A stretch of DNA of 64,000 nucleotides from an uncultured Bacteroidia bacterium (GTDB lineage Bacteria > Bacteroidota > Bacteroidia > Bacteroidales > F082), in contig CACXUM010000013.1 in NCBI GenBank assembly GCA_902770835.1, positions 22,592-86,591 on the forward strand, given 5' to 3'. A model generated the notes under the pieces. That model searched no databases. It was not told where the DNA came from and saw only the letters and a list, made by a program, of their open reading frames with translations. The position numbers were made by a program, and so were the translations under genes. Positions within the stretch are counted from its first letter, which is position 1. Each line of letters opens with the position of its first letter. This document shows, one piece after another, positions 22,433 through 46,547 of this stretch.

Positions 22433-22600
22433 ATGGGAAATTCAGAGGTGAAAGCAGAGAGCGAACAGGGCGGGGCGACCCTTACAGGGTTGCAACGCTT
22501 CACCGATGAGCAGTTGGCGGCTGAATTGGAACACCGTGGCTTTATGGTGTGGAAATGGCAGGATTTGGGGGAGTTGGGTAGTGATTATTGGATTTGGTGA
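22433..22600 (+). CDS. Very small unknown protein (55 residues)
   Basis: ATG 22433 to TGA 22600. The protein ends with an aromatic-rich segment (GFMVWKWQDLGELG, then DYWIW). FTDEQLAAEL resembles the LTDEQLDAVI segment of the DUF5681-like protein, hinting at a shared helix. It starts 31 bases after the preceding gene in an A-rich leader. Short, so moderate confidence. Confidence 0.45.
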   Translation: MGNSEVKAESEQGGATLTGLQRFTDEQLAAELEHRGFMVWKWQDLGELGSDYWIW

Positions 22601-37509: not shown

Positions 37510-37528
37510 CCACCGAAGAATTGACTAC

Positions 37529-37567
37529 AAAAATGCGGAGCGACATGTGTCGTTCCGCATTTTTATT
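37529..37567 (+). terminator. Terminator after sppA
   Basis: A 17-base stem from AAAAATGCGG to CCGCATTTTT with one G-T pair and a two-base loop. Confidence 0.85.
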
Positions 37568-37692
37568 TGGGCTTTTGCGATACACAAGTTTGTGGACTGT
37601 TATTGAATCTATCATCCCATTACGATATTCACAACACTATAAGAACATCATCCCGCTTTGGCATTTTTCGACAATGTGTAAATCTTGCCTTC

Positions 37693-37732
37693 AAATAACG
37701 GACTAACTTTGCAGGTTTTATGCATAGAAAAA
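37693..37732. repeat. 40-base direct repeat, left copy
   Basis: Begins AAATAACGGACTAACTTTGC and ends TGCATAGAAAAA. 37 of 40 bases match 42742-42781 in the same orientation. It abuts the 3' end of ATPase c and includes TAACTTTG, a possible -7 box. Confidence 0.75.
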
Positions 37733-37734
37733 CC

Positions 37735-38859
37735 TCAAACCAAATACTCCAAATAATTTTCCGGCGTGACAACCACAGTTTCCTTCACGGGATAAGCCTC
37801 CAAGAAAGCCTTGGGGAAATGGGCTTTTTTAGCCGGATTCCATTTCATCTCAAAGGCGGTCATTTGCCCGTCCGTTTCCTCAACCAAATCAATTTCCTGT
37901 TGCTGGTTGGTGCGCCAAAAATAAGTGTTGCAGAAATGTTGCCCGTAATGGTTGCGCTTCATCCGCTCTACGATGAAAAAGTTCTCCCATAGTGCTCCCA
38001 TGTCACCACGCAAAGCGACAGGCGCAAACTGCTGAATAACAGCATTCCGCACACCCGTATCGTAAAAATAGATTTTCTTGCTCTTCTTGAGTTCGTTCCT
38101 CAAATTCCGATTCAAGCCACCCAAACGGAAGACCACAAAACATTTTTCAAGCAAATCAATGTACTTGTCAATGGTTTTGTTGTCGGTTTGAAGCGTATTC
38201 GCCAACTCATTGGTGGAAACTTCACTCCCGATTTGAAATGCCAACGCCTGTACCAATTTCTCAATCAAATCGGGCTTGCGAATATCGTTCAACGAGAAGA
38301 TGTCTTTATACAAGTAACTTTGTGTCAGTTCGGTAAGATACAAACGTGCCTTTTCAGGATGAGTGACAATATCGGGGTAACTTCCGTATATCAACCTGTT
38401 TTCCAAAGTCCGTTTCTCCTCAAGCAATCCGTAAGTCTGAATCATCTCGGCACTTGAAATGGGAAACAGTCGGTACTCCAATTTGCGCCCTGTCAAAGGT
38501 TCGTTCAGCCGATTGTGCAACTCAAATGCCGACGAGCCAGTTGCCACCACCTGAACCTCCTTGAAATTGTCCACAATGAGTTTCAGCGTCATTCCAATGT
38601 CATTCACCTTTTGGGCCTCATCGATAACGACTAATTTGGCACCGCCAATCAGAAGTTGAAGTTTGGCTACATTTGTCTCGCCCAACAATGCACGAGTCTC
38701 TGGTTCATCACAATTCAGCCATAAGACAGATGGTTCATTCTGTTGAGCCAATTGTTTCAACAAAGTGGTCTTGCCCACCTGACGGGCTCCAACCAGCACA
38801 ATGGCCTTACCATTATAAAACTGGCTTTCAATAACTTCCTTCAATTTTCTTAGTATCAT
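37735..38859 (-). CDS. Stand-alone ATPase with DUF4143 domain, ATPase c
   Basis: 374 residues from ATG 38859; an earlier in-frame TTG at 38865 is not needed. Walker A GARQVGKTT at 24-32, Walker B LVVIDEAQKV near 82, sensor VATGSSAF near 108. The DUF4143 stretch includes YLYKDIFSLNDIRKPDLIEKL and IYFYDTGVRNAVI. At the C-terminus EIDLVEETDG followed by AFEMKW fits the PD-(D/E)XK D...E-x-K pattern. The promoter (TATTTTTG at 38886-38879) has a 20-base perfect inverted repeat just upstream. It converges on sppA and lies inside the 40-base direct repeats. Confidence 0.87.
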   Translation of the reverse strand: MILRKLKEVIESQFYNGKAIVLVGARQVGKTTLLKQLAQQNEPSVLWLNCDEPETRALLGETNVAKLQLLIGGAKLVVIDEAQKVNDIGMTLKLIVDNFKEVQVVATGSSAFELHNRLNEPLTGRKLEYRLFPISSAEMIQTYGLLEEKRTLENRLIYGSYPDIVTHPEKARLYLTELTQSYLYKDIFSLNDIRKPDLIEKLVQALAFQIGSEVSTNELANTLQTDNKTIDKYIDLLEKCFVVFRLGGLNRNLRNELKKSKKIYFYDTGVRNAVIQQFAPVALRGDMGALWENFFIVERMKRNHYGQHFCNTYFWRTNQQQEIDLVEETDGQMTAFEMKWNPAKKAHFPKAFLEAYPVKETVVVTPENYLEYLV

Positions 38860-38893
38860 ACCCAATGCTTTGATACTGCAAAAATACTAATTT

Positions 38894-38943
38894 TATAGAC
38901 TATAATCCAAAAATAATGCTGATTTTTTGGATTATAGTCTATA
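38894..38943. repeat. 20-base perfect inverted repeat upstream of ATPase c
   Basis: Arms 38894-38913 (start TATAGACTATAATCC) and 38924-38943, spacer 10 bases. It begins eight bases upstream of the -7 box of ATPase c and covers its -33 region. Confidence 0.8.
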
Positions 38944-39113
38944 TTTTTCTTTTTTTTCACTAAAATATTCACAATATTCATAGGCACATTAATCACTTTG
39001 CGTATCCAATTAGCTCGCTAAGGGGTAAAAGACACTTTCGTCGTGAAAGACGACATCAAGGCAATGAAAACAATGTCCCGCTTGGGGATTTTGGGATGGG
39101 GAACTGAATGAAA

Positions 39114-39773
39114 TCACTCTTCAAACATCTCCATTTCGTCCCGAAGTTCTGTCAGCAATTTGCCATTGTACGAAAAAAACTTCGGGCCTCGATATGCATC
39201 CGAGGTGTTTCGTTTGTCATCAGGCATGAATGTAGAGGCAAAATTCGACAATGTGTAAATCCTACCTTCAAATTCTATGGTGTTCTCTGAGGCCACTTTT
39301 ACTGTTTGTCCAGTCGGAGTGAATGTGATAGTTTCCCCAACTTGGATTCCAATCATGGAGAATTTGAAATTGGGCTTTTGCCTTTTATGTTCACAAACCT
39401 CACCTGTTGAATCAATGGATTTTGCCTCTTGATTAACAATGTCAATTTCAGCATCATCAAGGGTGGTGGCGATGTCTTTCAGGATGTCTAAGGCGACAAA
39501 TGGATCCACGTTGAAAAACTCCCTGTTTTGCCTGATGCGCAAAGAAGTCAATCGGTCGATGGTCTTATGCACCAGTTTTTCAACCTCGTTGTATTTCTTC
39601 GTCTTCAATGTAGCGAAAACTTCGAAAGGCAATGGTACAGCGGTGTTGTCCAATTCTTTGGAACGAACATCCACTGGACGTGAACTCTTCCCGATTTTCA
39701 CCCAATCTTCTTTGAAACTCGGATTGGTCAAAATGTAAACGTAACCTTGGTCTGATTCTTTGGTCATATCCAT
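39114..39773 (-). CDS. GIY-YIG nuclease-family protein (T5orf172/MUG113 type)
   Basis: 219 residues. The N-terminal 100 residues match the T5orf172 version of the GIY-YIG fold: GYVYILTNPS (GIY position), WVKIGKSSRPVDVRSKELDN (YIG position plus the conserved Arg), FEVFATLKTKKYNEVEKLVH and REFFNV. The C-terminal 100 residues form a small beta-rich domain (IGVQVGETITFTPTGQTVKV-like stretch at about 150-170) possibly for DNA or target binding. Its start codon overlaps the stop of the SMC-like ATPase gene by one base, so the two proteins are made together and probably act together on DNA. Confidence 0.85.
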   Translation of the reverse strand: MDMTKESDQGYVYILTNPSFKEDWVKIGKSSRPVDVRSKELDNTAVPLPFEVFATLKTKKYNEVEKLVHKTIDRLTSLRIRQNREFFNVDPFVALDILKDIATTLDDAEIDIVNQEAKSIDSTGEVCEHKRQKPNFKFSMIGIQVGETITFTPTGQTVKVASENTIEFEGRIYTLSNFASTFMPDDKRNTSDAYRGPKFFSYNGKLLTELRDEMEMFEE

Positions 39774-41548
39774 TATTCTTTTCTGATTTTTCTATAATGC
39801 AATTTGCCGCAATGACATGATTTATTATTTTCATAAAACTTCCCAGATACCCAACTCATACATTCATCACAAAAAGTCTTATCGTATAAAGATTGTACCG
39901 CATTTGCAAAACTCAATATCTCAAAATCACTTGTTTCTTCCGACCAAGATGAATAATGACATCCAACCATATTTCTAATGAACATGAAATCGTTAATGTC
40001 CTTTACTTCCTTTTCTAATCCTATATTGAGTAGTGCTGATTTTACACCTTTCCAAAGGTCTCCGATTGTGTATTTATCGTCTGGATTACGACTAATTTGA
40101 CAATTCAAGAAACCGCTAAGCTTTTCACATATCATTTCAAGAAAAGGTCCCGCTGTTGATGCAATAATGTTAATGTCATTGGTATTCAATGCTTTTTTCA
40201 AGCGCTCATCTTTCCCTGCATTATTTATTATAGGTCCACCATCAAATGACCATTTAACAATATCAAATTCTTTGAATTGGTGACGGCCACCCTTTGTTGG
40301 ATTGTTAAATAGATGACGAAGTTGGTTTAACCATGCTCTATCATGACAAGTAATGAATAATTGCCAATCACTGAATTCCCTGAGAACATATGATATAAAC
40401 TTTGTTCTAATTGTTGCGTCAACGCTCTGTAAGACATCGTCTAGGATTAATATTTTGGCTTGTCCCTTTTCAGCACCGACACGAATCATTGACACATAAA
40501 GCAATAAGAGCATTAGGTCGTAATTGGCTTCGCTAAAGATTCTTTGTGGTGGGACTTTCCTTCCGTTTTTTAAAGTGACTATTATTTCAAATGATGCAAC
40601 TGAAACATCTGCTACAGCAAAATCAATGCTGCTGACAAAATCCACATTTGATATTTCTTTAAAAGCTTTGCTCAAATGCTTTGCAGCCTCTTTGTACCTT
40701 TCTTTTAATGATTCAAATTTTTTACCTTCTATATCATCAATTTTTACAAGATTACGCTTTTCTCGGTTTTTTCTTTTTTTTATAGATTGCAATTTGTCGA
40801 TTTCTTTTGCTAGTTCAATAGCTTTTTCGAATTCTTTGGGATGAAGTGACTGCTTCAGTTTTTTTGATTTTTGTGCAAACCCTATTTCCCCTATGAGACA
40901 AAACCGAGATTTTACATAGTTTTCTGCACCAGCATTAAAGATTTGATCAGATTCTTCGTTTTCAATATGTAAAAAGGCTTTCAATTTGTCAATTAAAGAA
41001 TTACGCTTATTCTTAACTTCTTGCCTTTCCTTTTCTACACGCGCAATTTCAGGATCATCTGTCGTTTTGGCTTTTATTTCAAAATCGTAAATAAACTCGG
41101 CAAGTAATAGTTGTTTATTGTCAACTTTTTGATAGTCGTATGCAATAATGTCGTTCCTCCTTAATACGATAGGTGAAAAACAAAATGAATCATGGCATTC
41201 CGTTGGTTTTACGTTAATAATATCTTTGTTTGATAATTGATCAAATTCCACATCAATGTCTCTATTATTTATACTAGCATCATCGAACTCAACTGTTGTA
41301 TGGGCTGTTTTGTATTTTTCATAGAAAACACTAAGGGTTGATGGCCTTTTTTCATTTTCTATTTCTTTTTTCCTTGCTAACCTTGCTTGAAGGTTAAACT
41401 CTATCGCATCAATGATTGATGATTTTCCACAACCATTGCCACCATATATAATGGCAGAACATGCTTTCCCGGATTTATCCCGAAAATCCAACGAACAATG
41501 TCCTGGAATCCCTCTAAAACTCTCAATATCAATTTTTGCAATTCTCAT
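39773..41548 (-). CDS. SMC/RecF-like ATPase of a putative defence operon
   Basis: 591 residues. Starts like RecF/SMC heads (IDIESFRGIPG), Walker A GGNGCGKSS at 36-44, then a helical, charged middle (about 165-310) that is a short coiled coil. The second half of the head has a degenerate signature (SEANYDLMLLLLYVSM), Walker B ILILDDVLQSVDA and the switch His in ITCHDRAW. The C-terminal 140 residues are separate: helices with FIRNMVGCHYS, which fits the HEPN-type R-x(4-6)-H pattern, and a zinc-site-like set of CDEC and CHCG. The protein lies between a WYL regulator and a GIY-YIG nuclease in an operon with gaps of 2 and -1 bases. ATPases of this kind drive many anti-phage systems; this exact trio is not one I can name. 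Confidence 0.8.
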   Translation of the reverse strand: MRIAKIDIESFRGIPGHCSLDFRDKSGKACSAIIYGGNGCGKSSIIDAIEFNLQARLARKKEIENEKRPSTLSVFYEKYKTAHTTVEFDDASINNRDIDVEFDQLSNKDIINVKPTECHDSFCFSPIVLRRNDIIAYDYQKVDNKQLLLAEFIYDFEIKAKTTDDPEIARVEKERQEVKNKRNSLIDKLKAFLHIENEESDQIFNAGAENYVKSRFCLIGEIGFAQKSKKLKQSLHPKEFEKAIELAKEIDKLQSIKKRKNREKRNLVKIDDIEGKKFESLKERYKEAAKHLSKAFKEISNVDFVSSIDFAVADVSVASFEIIVTLKNGRKVPPQRIFSEANYDLMLLLLYVSMIRVGAEKGQAKILILDDVLQSVDATIRTKFISYVLREFSDWQLFITCHDRAWLNQLRHLFNNPTKGGRHQFKEFDIVKWSFDGGPIINNAGKDERLKKALNTNDINIIASTAGPFLEMICEKLSGFLNCQISRNPDDKYTIGDLWKGVKSALLNIGLEKEVKDINDFMFIRNMVGCHYSSWSEETSDFEILSFANAVQSLYDKTFCDECMSWVSGKFYENNKSCHCGKLHYRKIRKE

Positions 41549-41550
41549 AT

Positions 41551-42582
41551 TTATTTGGTTTGTGTTGTTTTACATCCATTATCCTTGTATTTTCTTGCCA
41601 AATTTTCAATTCGTTCGGCAATTCTCAACCGTAAACACTTTGGCGTCAGCACTTCAATATCCTCACCATAACTGAGAATCATGGTTTCCAATTCGTTATT
41701 GATGCGCACTTTTAGCCTAATCACCTTGTATTCCTCGGTTGCCTCGTCTTTCAGTTCGGTCTGCGACCAGTGAATAGGCTTTGTGGCAATGTAAGGATAC
41801 CGCTTCGCATCGACACGCAGCCTGATTTCCTCAATGGGACGGTCGGGGAACACGGTTACGCCAACTGAATCCCCGAAATAGTCTTCCATATCCACATTGG
41901 ATTCAATGAATGGAATGTGCAACGTTTTTATGGAATCAATCCTGTCAATGGCCAATACTGAAAGGTCGTCGAAACCTTCTGTTTGAGCCACGAGAAACCA
42001 CCTGTCGTTGTATTGCTTCAGGTAATACGGATGTATGTTCATGCTCCGTTCGGGCTTGCCGAATGGCTTGTACGAAATGGTCAATGGCTGGTTATTGATA
42101 ATGGCACCCAATAATGCTTGAAAATGCCCAATGCCCACCAAGTCAGCATTGTTTTGGAACTCGACAAACCGTTTGCCGCTTTCCCAACCATTACCGTTCT
42201 CAATCTGTGAGAGAAGGGTCAGCATCCATTGATATTGTGGAATGTCGTCGTACTGTGACAACATCCCGATTGTTTTCTTCAACATTTCTTTTTCCTCATC
42301 GTCAAGCGTCACCATCGGCAAAGAAAACGAAACATCGGCATACCTGTAGAGTCGGCGTTTTCCGCTTTTCAGCGATTCATCGAGTTCGATGTAGTAGGGC
42401 GATTCCTGCAAGCGTTGAATGTCGCCCCTAAGCGTCCTTTCGCTTACAGGCTGGCAATCGTGCTTTTCCAGTTCGCGGTTTACGGCATCAAGTAGAGCAT
42501 TGATGTCAAACTCGCGATGTGCATTTCTGAAACAGCGGTTTAGCACTCTATATCGAATCAAGACTTGTCTATCTACTGGCAT
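41551..42582 (-). CDS. WYL-domain transcriptional regulator
   Basis: 343 residues. N-terminal winged HTH (LLDAVNRELEKHDCQPVSERTLRGDIQRL, about 29-57), a central region, then the WYL fold (PLTISYKPFGKPERSMNIHPYYLKQYNDRWFLVAQTEG; here the W-Y-L core reads RWFLVA) and the C-terminal WCX part. WYL proteins such as BrxR, CapW and DriD bind nucleic-acid or nucleotide signals and repress or activate defence and damage operons. It is the first gene of the operon, and a palindrome over the promoter is a good candidate for self-regulation. Confidence 0.88.
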   Translation of the reverse strand: MPVDRQVLIRYRVLNRCFRNAHREFDINALLDAVNRELEKHDCQPVSERTLRGDIQRLQESPYYIELDESLKSGKRRLYRYADVSFSLPMVTLDDEEKEMLKKTIGMLSQYDDIPQYQWMLTLLSQIENGNGWESGKRFVEFQNNADLVGIGHFQALLGAIINNQPLTISYKPFGKPERSMNIHPYYLKQYNDRWFLVAQTEGFDDLSVLAIDRIDSIKTLHIPFIESNVDMEDYFGDSVGVTVFPDRPIEEIRLRVDAKRYPYIATKPIHWSQTELKDEATEEYKVIRLKVRINNELETMILSYGEDIEVLTPKCLRLRIAERIENLARKYKDNGCKTTQTK

Positions 42583-42592
42583 GATAATGTTC

Positions 42593-42618
42593 TTTCTGTG
42601 GTGACAAAATTACAGAAA
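42593..42618 (-). promoter_or_regulatory. Operator-like inverted repeat over the WYL operon promoter
   Basis: TTTCTGT (42593-42599) and ACAGAAA (42612-42618), spacer 12 bases. It encloses the minus-strand -7 box TAATTTTG (42612-42605), and the start codon is only 11 bases further down. A protein bound here would block transcription. Confidence 0.65.
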
Positions 42619-42633
42619 AAAACGTATTAAAGA

Positions 42634-42720
42634 TTACTTTTTGCCTCCTTTGCCGAAAAGAGATTCGCCACACTCTGAAAGGACATACAAAAAGCATCCG
42701 ATAATAAACAAAAGCTTCAT
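42634..42720 (-). CDS. Possible 28-residue membrane microprotein
   Basis: ATG 42720 to TAA 42634, encoding MKLLFIIGCFLYVLSECG followed by a basic tail GKGGKK. One short hydrophobic helix. The minus-strand box TTATTTTG lies about 30 bases upstream, next to the 40-base repeat. Only weak evidence for translation; it could be a toxin-like or accessory peptide of the defence locus. Confidence 0.35.
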   Translation of the reverse strand: MKLLFIIGCFLYVLSECGESLFGKGGKK

Positions 42721-42741
42721 AGTGGTAGAAATTTTTCTGCA

Positions 42742-42781
42742 AAATAACGGCCTAACCTTGCAGGTTTTCTGCATAGAAAAA
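42742..42781. repeat. 40-base direct repeat, right copy
   Basis: Begins AAATAACGGCCTAACCTTGC, 37 of 40 bases identical to 37693-37732, same orientation. The pair encloses about 5 kb with ATPase c and the WYL/SMC/GIY-YIG operon. Confidence 0.75.
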
Positions 42782-42864
42782 AATCTGTCTGTTGTGATGA
42801 TTGATATGAGAAAAATAAAAGTTTGAAAAAGCATCATCTCAACTTGACATTTCGGTATAAACTA

Positions 42865-42978
42865 ACCGATAATCTGCTGCTAAGTCCCCCAAAAATCGAC
42901 TTAGCAGCAGGTTATCTCACATTTTTGCAGATTATATGCTGTTAAGTGCAAAAAAAATCGACTTAGCAGCAGATAATC
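42865..42978. repeat. Double-hairpin repeat upstream of ATPase d
   Basis: Two hairpins: 42868-42916 (19-base arms starting GATAATCTGCTGCTAAGTC, one mismatch, 11-base spacer) and 42930-42978 (18-base arms with two mismatches). The whole block is about 90% identical to 44445-44559 downstream of the gene, same orientation. Confidence 0.85.
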
Positions 42979-43027
42979 CGAAATAATTTCGTTTCTTTGC
43001 AGCATTGAACGAAAAAACGACATCCTT

Positions 43028-44452
43028 ATGCTGATTGGACGCAACGAAGAAAGAAGAGAACTCCTTGAACTGTTGGAGAAAGACGAATCGCAATTCTGCG
43101 CCGTTTACGGGCGGCGGCGCGTGGGCAAGACCTACCTCATCAAGGAAACTTTTGAGAACCATTTCGCGTTTTACCACACGGGCGTGGCCAACGCCGACAA
43201 AAAGGAACAACTGACCGAGTTTCGTGAGTCGCTGCGGCATGCCGGGCTGAAACGCTGTAAGATGCCCCGCACTTGGTTTGAAGCCTTCCACCTCCTTGAA
43301 GCGGTTTTGGAGCAATCGCCCGACAGGAAAAAAGTGGTTTTCTTGGACGAACTTCCTTGGATGGACACACCCAAGTCGCAGTTTGTCAGTGCTTTGGAGC
43401 ATTTTTGGAACGGTTGGGCCAACATGCGCAACGACATCGTCCTCATCGTTTGCGGCAGCGCCACCTCGTGGATCATCAAGAAAATCATCCGCGACCACGG
43501 CGGGCTGCACAACCGTCTGACCGACCAAATCTACCTGCGGCCTTTCTGCCTCGGCGAATGTGAGCAATACGCCCAATCGCTGCAAATCAGCTTGACGCGC
43601 AAAGACCTCACCGAAGCCTATATGATATTGGGCGGCATCCCGTATTATTGGAGCCTCTTGCGGCGCGGCGAGAGTCTTTCGCAAAACATCGACCGCCTGT
43701 TTTTCAGCGAAAACGGTCGCCTCTCCCACGAATTTGAGGCTTTGTACGACTCGTTGTTTAAGAAGCCCACGCCCTACATCAGCATTGTCACCGCCTTGGC
43801 GACCAAAAAAGCCGGAATGACCCGCAAGGAACTCCTCGAAAGCACCGGCCTTGACGACAACGCCGTCTTCATCCGCACCCTTGAGGAATTGGAGCAATGC
43901 AACTTCATCAGAAAATACCAAATCCTCGGCAAGAAGCATCGCGACGCGATTTACCAACTGATGGACAACTTCACACTGTTTTATTTCCGCTACCTCACAA
44001 GCAACATAAAGAAGGACAACCACTTCTGGTCCAACAACTTATCCTCGCAACTCCACTCCACTTGGGCAGGCTTGGCCTTCGAGCGCGTCTGCCTATGGCA
44101 TTTGCCGCAAATCAAAGAGGCTTTGGGCATTGGTGGCGTGGTCAGCACGGCGCAATCATGGCACACCGAAGCCACCAAGGAGCACGACGGCGCACAAATC
44201 GACCTGCTCATCGACCGCAACGACGGAGTAATCAATCTTTGTGAAATGAAATTCTCAAACGACACCTACCAGATTGACAGCGAAGAAGATAAGAACCTCA
44301 GAAGACGCCAATCCGTGTTCCAGCATGTCACCAAGACCCGCAAGGCCATTCATACCACAATGATTACCACCTACGGCGTGGCGCACAATGCTTATTGGAA
44401 CAGCATCCAATCCGAAGTGAAAATGGACGATTTGTTCAAAGAATACCGATAA
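43028..44452 (+). CDS. Stand-alone archaeal-type ATPase with DUF234 (PD-(D/E)XK-like) domain, ATPase d
   Basis: 474 residues. Begins IGRNEERRELLELL, Walker A GRRRVGKT at 28-35, Walker B VVFLDELPWMDTP near 105, sensor VCGSATSW near 140: the PF01637-type ATPase. A winged HTH follows (KKAGMTRKELLESTGLDD). The C-terminal DUF234 region has AQIDLLIDRNDGVINLCEMKF, a D...E-x-K nuclease-like core. The stop codon lies in the first bases of a double-hairpin repeat that is also present upstream of the gene, so gene plus repeats look like a unit. Function unknown; transposon-like spread, toxin-type DNA cleavage or chromosome maintenance are possible. Confidence 0.88.
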   Translation: MLIGRNEERRELLELLEKDESQFCAVYGRRRVGKTYLIKETFENHFAFYHTGVANADKKEQLTEFRESLRHAGLKRCKMPRTWFEAFHLLEAVLEQSPDRKKVVFLDELPWMDTPKSQFVSALEHFWNGWANMRNDIVLIVCGSATSWIIKKIIRDHGGLHNRLTDQIYLRPFCLGECEQYAQSLQISLTRKDLTEAYMILGGIPYYWSLLRRGESLSQNIDRLFFSENGRLSHEFEALYDSLFKKPTPYISIVTALATKKAGMTRKELLESTGLDDNAVFIRTLEELEQCNFIRKYQILGKKHRDAIYQLMDNFTLFYFRYLTSNIKKDNHFWSNNLSSQLHSTWAGLAFERVCLWHLPQIKEALGIGGVVSTAQSWHTEATKEHDGAQIDLLIDRNDGVINLCEMKFSNDTYQIDSEEDKNLRRRQSVFQHVTKTRKAIHTTMITTYGVAHNAYWNSIQSEVKMDDLFKEYR

Positions 44453-44559
44453 TCTGCTGTTAAGTCCCTAAAAAATCGACTTAGCAGCAGGTTATCGTGC
44501 ATTTTTTGCAGATTATCTGCTGTTAAGTCCTTAAAAAATCGGGTTAGCAGCAGATAATC
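44445..44559. repeat. Double-hairpin repeat downstream of ATPase d
   Basis: Hairpins 44448-44496 and 44511-44559, each with 19-base arms, arranged as in the upstream block. The TAA stop of ATPase d (44450-44452) is part of the first arm. Confidence 0.85.
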
Positions 44560-44591
44560 GTATTGTTTTGTGGAAAAGAACACTTTAACGC

Positions 44592-46547
44592 CTATTTCCC
44601 ATACTCCGCCATCACTTCTTCCCGCTCGATTTGCTTCTCGCCCCAGTCGTCCATCAGGGCTTGGAGTTCCTCTTTCTTCTTGCCGTAGGCCCAATACCAG
44701 TCGTTATCTATCTTGGTTTCAGGGTGTTGCTCTGGGTTGGCCATAATTTTGTCTTGTTCGGCAAGTTCGGTTTCAAGTTTGCCGATGGCTTCCTCCAAGC
44801 GTTGGATTTCCTTATCGACCTTGCGGAGTTTGGCATCGATTTGTTTCTTGCGTTCGTAGTTGATTTTGTTTTGCGAAATAGGTTCGGCGGCGACTTTCTG
44901 AGGCTGTTGCTTGGCGGCTATCTCCAACTCTTTCAGGTGGTTGAGGTTCTTCTGTTCCAAGAAGTCATAGATGTCGCCGATGTATTCCTTGATGTTCGGT
45001 TTGCGGAACTCATAAACCTTGTTGGTCAAACCTTGAAGGAAATCACGGTCGTGGGAAACGATGATTAATGTGCCGTCGTATTGAATCAAGGCGTTTTTCA
45101 GGATGTCCTTCGAGAGCATGTCCAAGTGGTTGGTCGGCTCGTCCAAGACCAACAAGTTGGTCGGGAAAAGCAGCATTTTGGCCAAGGAAAGGCGCGCTTT
45201 TTCGCCGCCCGAGAGAACCTTCACTTTCTTGTCGATGTCGTCGCCACGGAAGAGGAAAGAGCCGAGTAAAGCCTTCACTTTCAGGCGCATATCGCCAACG
45301 GCCACATCGTCCAAAGTCTCAAAAACGGTCTTGTTCATGTCGAGCATATCCTGCTGGTTTTGGGCGTAATACCCAATCTTGACCTCGTGGCCAAGTTTCA
45401 CCTCACCTTCGTGGTCAAGAACGCCGCAGATGATTTTGGAAAGCGTGGACTTACCCTCGCCGTTGCGCCCCACGAAAGCGATCTTTTCCCCTCTCGGAAT
45501 CAGCAAGTTGATGTCTTTGAGGATGACTTTGTCGCCGTAGGATTTGCCCACATGGTTCAATTCCAAAGTGACCTTGCCAGAATGTGGCGCAGGCGGAAAC
45601 TTGAAGTGGATGGCCGTGCTGTCGATGTCATCGATGACGATTTCATCCATTTTTTCAAGGAGTTTCACGCGGCTTTGCACCTGCTTGGCCTTGGTCGCCT
45701 TGTAGCGGAAACGCTCAATGAACGCCTCGATGTTCTTGATTTCGCGCTGCTGGTTCTCGTAAGCCGAGCGTTGCATGTCCACACGTTCCTCGCGCAGACT
45801 GACGTAATCGGAGTAGGACACCTTGTAATCATAAATCTTGCCGTTAGAGATTTCCACCGTGCGGATGGTGATGTTGTCCAAAAAGGCGCGGTCGTGGCTC
45901 ACCATCAATATAGCACCATAATAAGCCTTCAAGAAGCCTTCGAGCCACTGAATGGACTCAATATCAAGGTGATTGGTCGGCTCGTCTAAAAGTAAAAGGT
46001 TGGGCTTTTTCAATAGGATTTTGGCCAATTCCACGCGCATTTGCCAGCCGTTGCTGAACTCGCGCATGGGTCGCAGCATATCTTCATGGCCAAAACCCAA
46101 GCCTACCAAAATGCGTTCCGCCTCACCTTCGATGGAGTTGCCGCCAAGCAGGGCCAAACGGTCATTGAGGTTGTTCAACTTCACAATAAGTTTCTCATAT
46201 TGAGGACTTTCATAATCCGTGCGCTCGGCCAACTCTTGTTGCAACTTCTCCGCATTGCGCTCCAGCTGGTGGTATTCGTCAAAAGCGGAAAGTGCCTCGT
46301 CCAAAACGGTTTTCGTGCTGTTCACGTTCTTTTCCTGTGGCAAATATCCGATGGTAACACCCTGTGGGACAATCACATCGCCTTTTGAAGGCTGCTCAAT
46401 GCCACAGATGAGTTTCAAGAGCGTGGTCTTGCCCGCGCCGTTTTTTCCCACAAGGCCGATACGGTCTTTTTCGCGAATCAGGAAGGAAATGTCGGTGAAG
46501 AGGTCTTCACCCGTGAAGTGCATACTCAGGTTTTGGATGGAAATCAT
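44592..46547 (-). CDS. ABC-F family ATPase
   Basis: 651 residues with two ABC domains and no membrane segments. Walker A sites GKNGAGKTT and GRNGEGKST; signatures from FSNGWQMRVELAKIL and LSGGEKARLSLAKML; Walker B LLLLDEPTNHLD and LLVLDEPTNHLD. The linker between the domains (RVDMQRSAYENQQREIKNIEAF) is the P-site tRNA interaction motif, and a C-terminal coiled coil (VDKEIQRLEEAIGKLETELAEQ) is present as in Uup/YdiF. ABC-F proteins bind ribosomes and rescue stalled translation or protect against antibiotics; this one most resembles housekeeping types. Confidence 0.93.
   Translation of the reverse strand: MISIQNLSMHFTGEDLFTDISFLIREKDRIGLVGKNGAGKTTLLKLICGIEQPSKGDVIVPQGVTIGYLPQEKNVNSTKTVLDEALSAFDEYHQLERNAEKLQQELAERTDYESPQYEKLIVKLNNLNDRLALLGGNSIEGEAERILVGLGFGHEDMLRPMREFSNGWQMRVELAKILLKKPNLLLLDEPTNHLDIESIQWLEGFLKAYYGAILMVSHDRAFLDNITIRTVEISNGKIYDYKVSYSDYVSLREERVDMQRSAYENQQREIKNIEAFIERFRYKATKAKQVQSRVKLLEKMDEIVIDDIDSTAIHFKFPPAPHSGKVTLELNHVGKSYGDKVILKDINLLIPRGEKIAFVGRNGEGKSTLSKIICGVLDHEGEVKLGHEVKIGYYAQNQQDMLDMNKTVFETLDDVAVGDMRLKVKALLGSFLFRGDDIDKKVKVLSGGEKARLSLAKMLLFPTNLLVLDEPTNHLDMLSKDILKNALIQYDGTLIIVSHDRDFLQGLTNKVYEFRKPNIKEYIGDIYDFLEQKNLNHLKELEIAAKQQPQKVAAEPISQNKINYERKKQIDAKLRKVDKEIQRLEEAIGKLETELAEQDKIMANPEQHPETKIDNDWYWAYGKKKEELQALMDDWGEKQIEREEVMAEYGK

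Follow-up and report, generated by a model that had tools for sequence, protein, structure and literature searches.

The ATPase gene and its flanking palindromes

The 64,000-nt stretch of DNA analysed here (the window; positions 22,592 to 86,591 of contig CACXUM010000013.1) comes from the genome of an uncultured Bacteroidales bacterium (GCA_902770835.1, here G000; 3.26 Mb, 76 contigs, 85.8% complete), and contains a 1.7-kb stretch in which the gene for an ATPase with a predicted nuclease domain is bracketed by two double-palindrome blocks in direct orientation. The features of this unit are:

42868..42916, + strand: upstream palindrome 1, with 19-bp arms and an 11-nt loop; the unit's left-hand outer end
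42930..42978, + strand: upstream palindrome 2, promoter-proximal; possible operator
42992..42999, + strand: promoter -7-like box TTTCTTTG, between palindrome and start codon
43028..44452, + strand: gene for the ATPase and predicted nuclease, 474 aa; Pfam ATPase_2, PADLOC PDC-S27
44447..44497, + strand: downstream palindrome 1, with the stop codon within its first arm
44511..44559, + strand: downstream palindrome 2; the unit's right-hand outer end

Across 115 nt the blocks share 88.7% identity, in agreement with an original prediction, made from the sequence of the window, of same-orientation repeats of about 115 bases and about 90% identity which each contain two long hairpins. All four palindromes could be mapped, and the folding energies of the blocks on the + strand are 11.0 and 11.4 standard deviations below those of dinucleotide shuffles, with none of 200 shuffles equalling them; the TAA stop codon of the ATPase gene (44450-44452) is, again as predicted, located inside the first arm of downstream palindrome 1. 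Each palindrome by itself is an inverted repeat, and the outer blocks are direct repeats of each other. The core GACTTAGCAGCAG, allowing for up to two mismatches, occurs seven times in the window (0.9 expected), every time within the blocks. Widespread copies of the repeats lacking an ATPase gene, which had been named beforehand as evidence against the prediction, were not seen in the 85.8% complete genome G000: the window's palindrome type has two matches there, both adjoining the ATPase gene, and is not a dispersed many-copy repeat.

The encoded protein consists of an AAA+ domain (approximately residues 1-240), a winged-helix-like region (approximately 240-325) and a PD-(D/E)XK-like domain (approximately 340-470). 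Its Pfam matches at E≤0.001 comprise four ATPase families only, with ATPase_2 (PF01637) and AAA_14 above the cut-off, AAA_22 at the cut-off and AAA_16 below it; DUF234, the family named in the original prediction, is not among them, which corrects this label, and neither a Y1/HUH nor a DDE transposase family was matched. This Pfam scan covered the ATPase protein alone, and the remaining listed open reading frames of at least 80 aa in the unit overlap the ATPase gene. The PADLOC profile PDC-S27 is matched over nearly its full length (E 5.8e-208; residues 2-470 aligned to positions 4-473 of the 474-position profile), and by this profile the protein is a member of PDC-S27, a putative defence gene. 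The PD-(D/E)XK residues E352, D392, E406 and K408 and likewise the Walker residues are invariant throughout the two sets compared (12/12 and 33/33), and residues 341-447 of the structural model follow the order helix, three strands, helix, strand. With these E...D...ExK residues in an alpha-beta core, the C-terminal domain is PD-(D/E)XK-like and a predicted nuclease. The listed matches of a whole-chain structure search mostly span residues 1-328, with none found separately for the C-terminal domain; the archaeal ATPases PABY2304 (2qen) and SSO1545 (2fna) share 16-19% identity with the window protein, and their alignment stops near model residue 322, before the C-terminal domain.

A family of units with private palindromes

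The genome G000 contains 31 matches to this protein family, 22 of which are near full length, and at least one match was found in 57 of the 100 genomes searched (G000 included). Many of these paralogues are bordered by unrelated palindromes of their own sequence. A palindrome is present upstream in 103/132 loci and downstream in 59/130 loci, counts which take in close orthologues, compared with 0/132 intragenic and 3/238 far-flank control stretches. When upstream and downstream flanks of G000's own loci were compared with each other, 15/23 loci had themselves as best match. Within the genus, 52 ATPase types were distinguished by grouping at 80% nucleotide identity, and with a score of at least 20 taken as a flank match, matching upstream and downstream sequences were present in 33/52 types (87/118 instances), versus 19/2652 cross-type pairs. 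A single hairpin consensus around all such ATPases, which the original prediction suggested looking for, is not supported by these comparisons, the palindrome being specific to each type.

With regard to their structure, the palindromes share a common grammar, mostly with a loop of 11-18 nt containing a run of A or T, and with a total length that peaks at 49 nt. Sequence resemblance between palindromes is confined to close relatives, and for protein pairs with a normalised score below 0.75 there was no correlation between palindrome and protein similarity (rho 0.003, with 128/300 permutations as high). In a wider set of loci, an upstream palindrome was also common in Lachnospiraceae, Eubacterium, Kiritimatiellae, Lentisphaerae and Succinatimonas records.

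Occupied sites, empty sites and sites with one block

The site of the window's unit, next to an ABC-F gene, had a match in 78 genomes, and the 30 best of these were compared. The unit is present in 12 of these 30 loci, with protein identities of 83-100%; two loci contain an ATPase that has diverged (to 69% and 49%), and none is within reach in 16. The two flanks of the copies in G048, G018 and G012 are joined in G024 and G019 with a gap of -7 to 8 nt, with no ATPase and no palindrome scoring at least 10 within 150 nt. For the L008 type, the flanking genes are joined in G021, G115 and G030, where the matched ends are 15-48 nt apart, and for the L313 type the site in G000 is empty, with flank identities of 94-95%. 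The L313 unit is bordered by a TTCA repeat, and since the empty site retains approximately 12 nt resembling the outer arm, it may represent a loss. These comparisons show gain or loss of units at given sites, and the same site was found both with and without a unit, which is a criterion for transposable elements. The original description of a minimal mobile unit is partly supported by this presence/absence polymorphism at the ABC-F site and by the clean empty sites; the unit's own protein may drive the movement, as considered below.

Sites with one palindrome block and without the ATPase, which the original prediction had suggested looking for, were found for three sister types (L006, L012 and L332) and not for the window's type. 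One block of the L006 type is flanked by the same pair of genes in G018, G048, G012, G058 and G007 (scores 9-14), with several of these palindromes decayed and a second, diverged palindrome also retained in G018 and G048, and the left flank with one palindrome is present in G003. For the L012 type, G018 contains a perfect palindrome with flanks that are 96% and 97% identical and a related ATPase approximately 1.7 kb away, and a one-block site is also present in G050 (flanks 88% and 78%), while at the L332-type site in G000 a single double block is present, and the flanks are 97% and 81% identical. Other candidates were set aside: the L014-type one-palindrome site in G018 is really a 5'-truncated ATPase, only the left flank is kept at the supposedly empty L012 site in G048 and G022, and at the L022 site in G022 and G012 one block is present, but with approximately 800 nt of other sequence before the right flank.

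Some further arrangements were observed at related loci. Two different ATPase types are located head to tail in L318 (G048:C7) and L327 (G018:C7), and in G021 and G031 (L384, L385) the flanks of one head-to-tail ATPase are joined without that ATPase. L069 (G050:C56) is a window-type unit without the second downstream palindrome, and L123 (G116:C192) has a 49%-identical ATPase at the window's site, where the downstream palindrome is window-like and the upstream palindromes belong to a different type, as though one gene had replaced another between the palindromes.

Edges and divergence of the units

The edges of the units were compared in clusters of two or more same-type copies, and shared sequence was found to stop often at the palindrome edge. 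The shared range of L350 and L338 is -92/+60, with palindromes at -92/+59, and that of L332 and L355 is -165/+99, with palindromes at -166/+96; exceptions are the L384 type, for which sharing extends approximately 200 nt further to the left, and the L014 type, which extends 55 nt further to the right. Some units are also more alike than their flanks: for the L384 type, the unit in G021 is 94-95% identical to those in G048, G018 and G050, with a shared right flank of 83-87%, and for L334 and L389 the unit is 96% identical versus 80% for the surroundings. Units are thus exchanged from one genome to another where they have a locus in common, in the way expected of homing or local recombination. 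Insertion behind terminators, hinted at by a few left flanks, was dismissed after a scan which gave 3 of the 40 listed copies, four of these 40 lacking a scorable palindrome pair.

A proposed mobile unit with its own ends and operator

We interpret the 1.7-kb stretch as a single-gene mobile unit, the protein of which recognises its own palindromes both as ends and as operator, and give this interpretation a probability of about 0.45. That the ATPase-nuclease itself moves the unit is suggested by the private pairing of proteins and palindromes, by the conserved nuclease residues and by the fact that no other gene was recognised in the unit. The protein would bind its own palindromes, the upstream palindrome being its operator and both together marking the ends, and the nuclease domain would cut at or near the palindrome; the unit would then be copied or excised, or be copied into a pre-existing lone palindrome in a homing-like manner, with host repair finishing the event. 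A private palindrome would stop the many co-resident units from acting on each other. More tentatively, these units may represent a new class of autonomous mobile elements, which have no HUH, DDE, serine or tyrosine recombinase and in which one AAA+/PD-(D/E)XK protein would copy its own gene, or move it, from one private palindrome to another, perhaps homing into a lone one, with dozens of mutually blind types per genus; much of the PDC-S27 (and perhaps PDC-S01) 'defence' would then be such an element.

Several observations weigh against a mobile unit with two ends. There are 19/52 types without a matching downstream copy, and in the wider set (79 of 80 loci scored, one being omitted because of a short flank) upstream and downstream sequences match in just 18/79 loci, some of these 18 having direct repeats without a clear palindrome (e.g. 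L254, L260). A second end therefore cannot be required in general, and in types without a downstream palindrome the sharing covers the gene and upstream region and ends at the stop codon. At the empty sites of the window type, the missing sequence extends approximately 30-55 nt past the palindromes, and L350 and L338 show the opposite of the divergence pattern described above, with 84% identity for the unit and 90% for the flank. Target duplications are variable, with 62 nt of the ABC-F gene end duplicated at 90% in G021 and 47 nt at 79% in G112, and were not found in six other window-type copies (G115, G111, G106, G048, G018, G000); as the TTCA repeat was seen at the L313 site only, there is no constant target-site duplication. 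The sites with one block could also have been produced by homologous recombination between direct repeats.

The surroundings of same-type copies point in the same direction. Our initial view of many same-type pairs in unrelated surroundings was overturned by a check of 19 such pairs, 11 of which share more flank within approximately 2 kb and because of this probably represent one locus that was rearranged, and a single rearranged locus likewise accounts for the L014-type copies in G000, G018 and G048. The other eight pairs share no flank of at least 100 nt within approximately 2 kb; among these, at least two belong to one locus by other evidence (L320/L014, and probably L320/L368), so that wholly unrelated surroundings rest on about five types, with pairs that are 79-89% identical. 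The extra flank homology in the 11 pairs weakened the case for a mobile unit, and the newly confirmed one-block sites limited this weakening.

Alternative explanations

The main contender is an autoregulated defence gene, in which the palindromes would serve as operators for the protein or its promoter, and the unit would be moved or lost passively via homologous recombination, island turnover or recombination between direct repeats. Autoregulation as such is compatible with a mobile unit. The Bacteroidota promoter -7 consensus is TWnnTTTG, and such a box follows the gene-proximal palindrome, ahead of the start codon, in 44/46 types, versus 4/46 for same-length stretches 600 nt upstream; in the window, the upstream palindrome is directly ahead of the promoter box, and in many types the palindrome is found roughly at the expected position of the -33 element, as an operator would be. 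A defence gene controlling its own expression also agrees with the upstream palindrome being much more general than the downstream one, with the PADLOC PDC-S27 match, with the presence of the window copy in an island of defence-like genes and with the many same-type pairs that share a locus. An operator needs no matched copy behind the gene, yet 33/52 types have one, and this explanation accounts neither for sharing that stops at the outer edges of the palindromes nor for the clean empty sites.

We consider it unlikely that the unit is a passenger, with palindromes recognised by a transposase encoded elsewhere in the manner of repetitive extragenic palindromic (REP) sequences or miniature inverted-repeat transposable elements. 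The unit contains no recognised transposase and lone palindromes do exist, as expected of a passenger, but the palindrome is type-specific and paired with its ATPase, so that one foreign enzyme would need dozens of target sequences, and the window's palindrome type occurs only beside its ATPase in G000. Least probable, and in our view very improbable, is a device acting at the RNA level, such as terminators, mRNA-stabilising hairpins or a repeat-derived RNA antitoxin. Strong sense-strand hairpins and a downstream block at the gene end would suit such a device, and the mismatches in the window did resemble sense-strand G-U wobble, but this was set aside on the basis of 150 non-redundant palindromes, in which G-T (37) and A-C (42) mismatches are equally frequent, with no sign of selection for RNA pairing. 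The run of T or A is furthermore located in the loop and not behind the stem, the upstream palindromes are ahead of the promoter box, and a search of positions 42600-44800 with Rfam gave no family above chance (one chance match was below the gathering score).

The surrounding island and the PDC-S01 family

The unit is part of a variable island of approximately 7 kb (approximately 37510-44590), located between a peptidase-like gene and the ABC-F gene, and also containing a PDC-S01 gene, a PDC-S57 gene, a RecF/SMC-type ATPase and a WYL regulator; in G030 (L137) the two outer genes of the island are side by side. At 37735-38943 the PDC-S01 (AAA_14/DUF4143) gene, with a PADLOC profile match of E 9.3e-168, is accompanied immediately upstream by a perfect palindrome with 20-bp arms (38894-38943), and in G022 (L037) the arms of this palindrome recur close to the window-type ATPase, within approximately 400 nt. 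At the L006 site, a PDC-S01-type gene (L133, 4852-6228, G000:C8) forms an insertion of 1.3 kb, bordered on each side by a 43-nt copy of the terminal part of an enoyl-CoA hydratase-like gene (a putative name, given from its sequence). Because of the perfect palindrome in the window and this insertion, the sister family PDC-S01 may behave like the PDC-S27 units.

Comparison with known systems

PDC-S27 has been described as an ATPase fused to PD-(D/E)XK and counted as a putative defence system, with 3503 in Archaea and 4562 in Bacteria in an archaeal survey (PMC12988326), and 2865 PDC-S27 and 10358 PDC-S01 loci are given in a rumen survey (PMC13356809). By profile these are the same families as the ones described here, and in the available text of both papers they are treated as defence, with no mention of flanking palindromes or of unit mobility (PMC12988326, PMC13356809). 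A search of an open-access literature set, by title and opening of the abstract, found no work on palindromes around these ATPases. Both PDC-S27 and PDC-S01 are frequent 'defence' annotations, and if they are mobile elements with a nuclease serving their own spread, then such figures reflect selfish DNA no less than immunity; if they are defence, the private palindromes give direct access to the target of recognition by the protein. In both cases, recognition and mobility can be tested with the pairs of protein and palindrome, which are a natural set of many different DNA-recognition pairs.

REP sequences are high-copy, their enzyme (the REP-associated tyrosine transposase RAYT, or TnpA-REP) is a HUH tyrosine transposase, and the cognate palindromes differ between families. 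The units described here resemble this system in that a protein gene is accompanied by cognate palindromes which differ between families, and differ from it in that the window type has two blocks in G000 and an AAA+/nuclease-like protein. Members of IS200/IS605 are compact, with one gene, hairpins near both ends and a Y1 HUH transposase which uses a single-strand mechanism; the window's unit is likewise compact, with one gene and hairpins near both ends, but its ends are direct repeats of one palindrome, and the Y1 HUH transposase is a feature of IS200/IS605. From a classical insertion sequence, with a DDE transposase and terminal inverted repeats, the unit differs by having no DDE match in Pfam and by its direct outer blocks. 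Finally, an AAA+ ATPase and a PD-(D/E)XK nuclease act on DNA ends in a known system, where these are separate proteins working with a DDE transposase, whereas the window's unit has one protein with AAA+ and PD-(D/E)XK-like domains.
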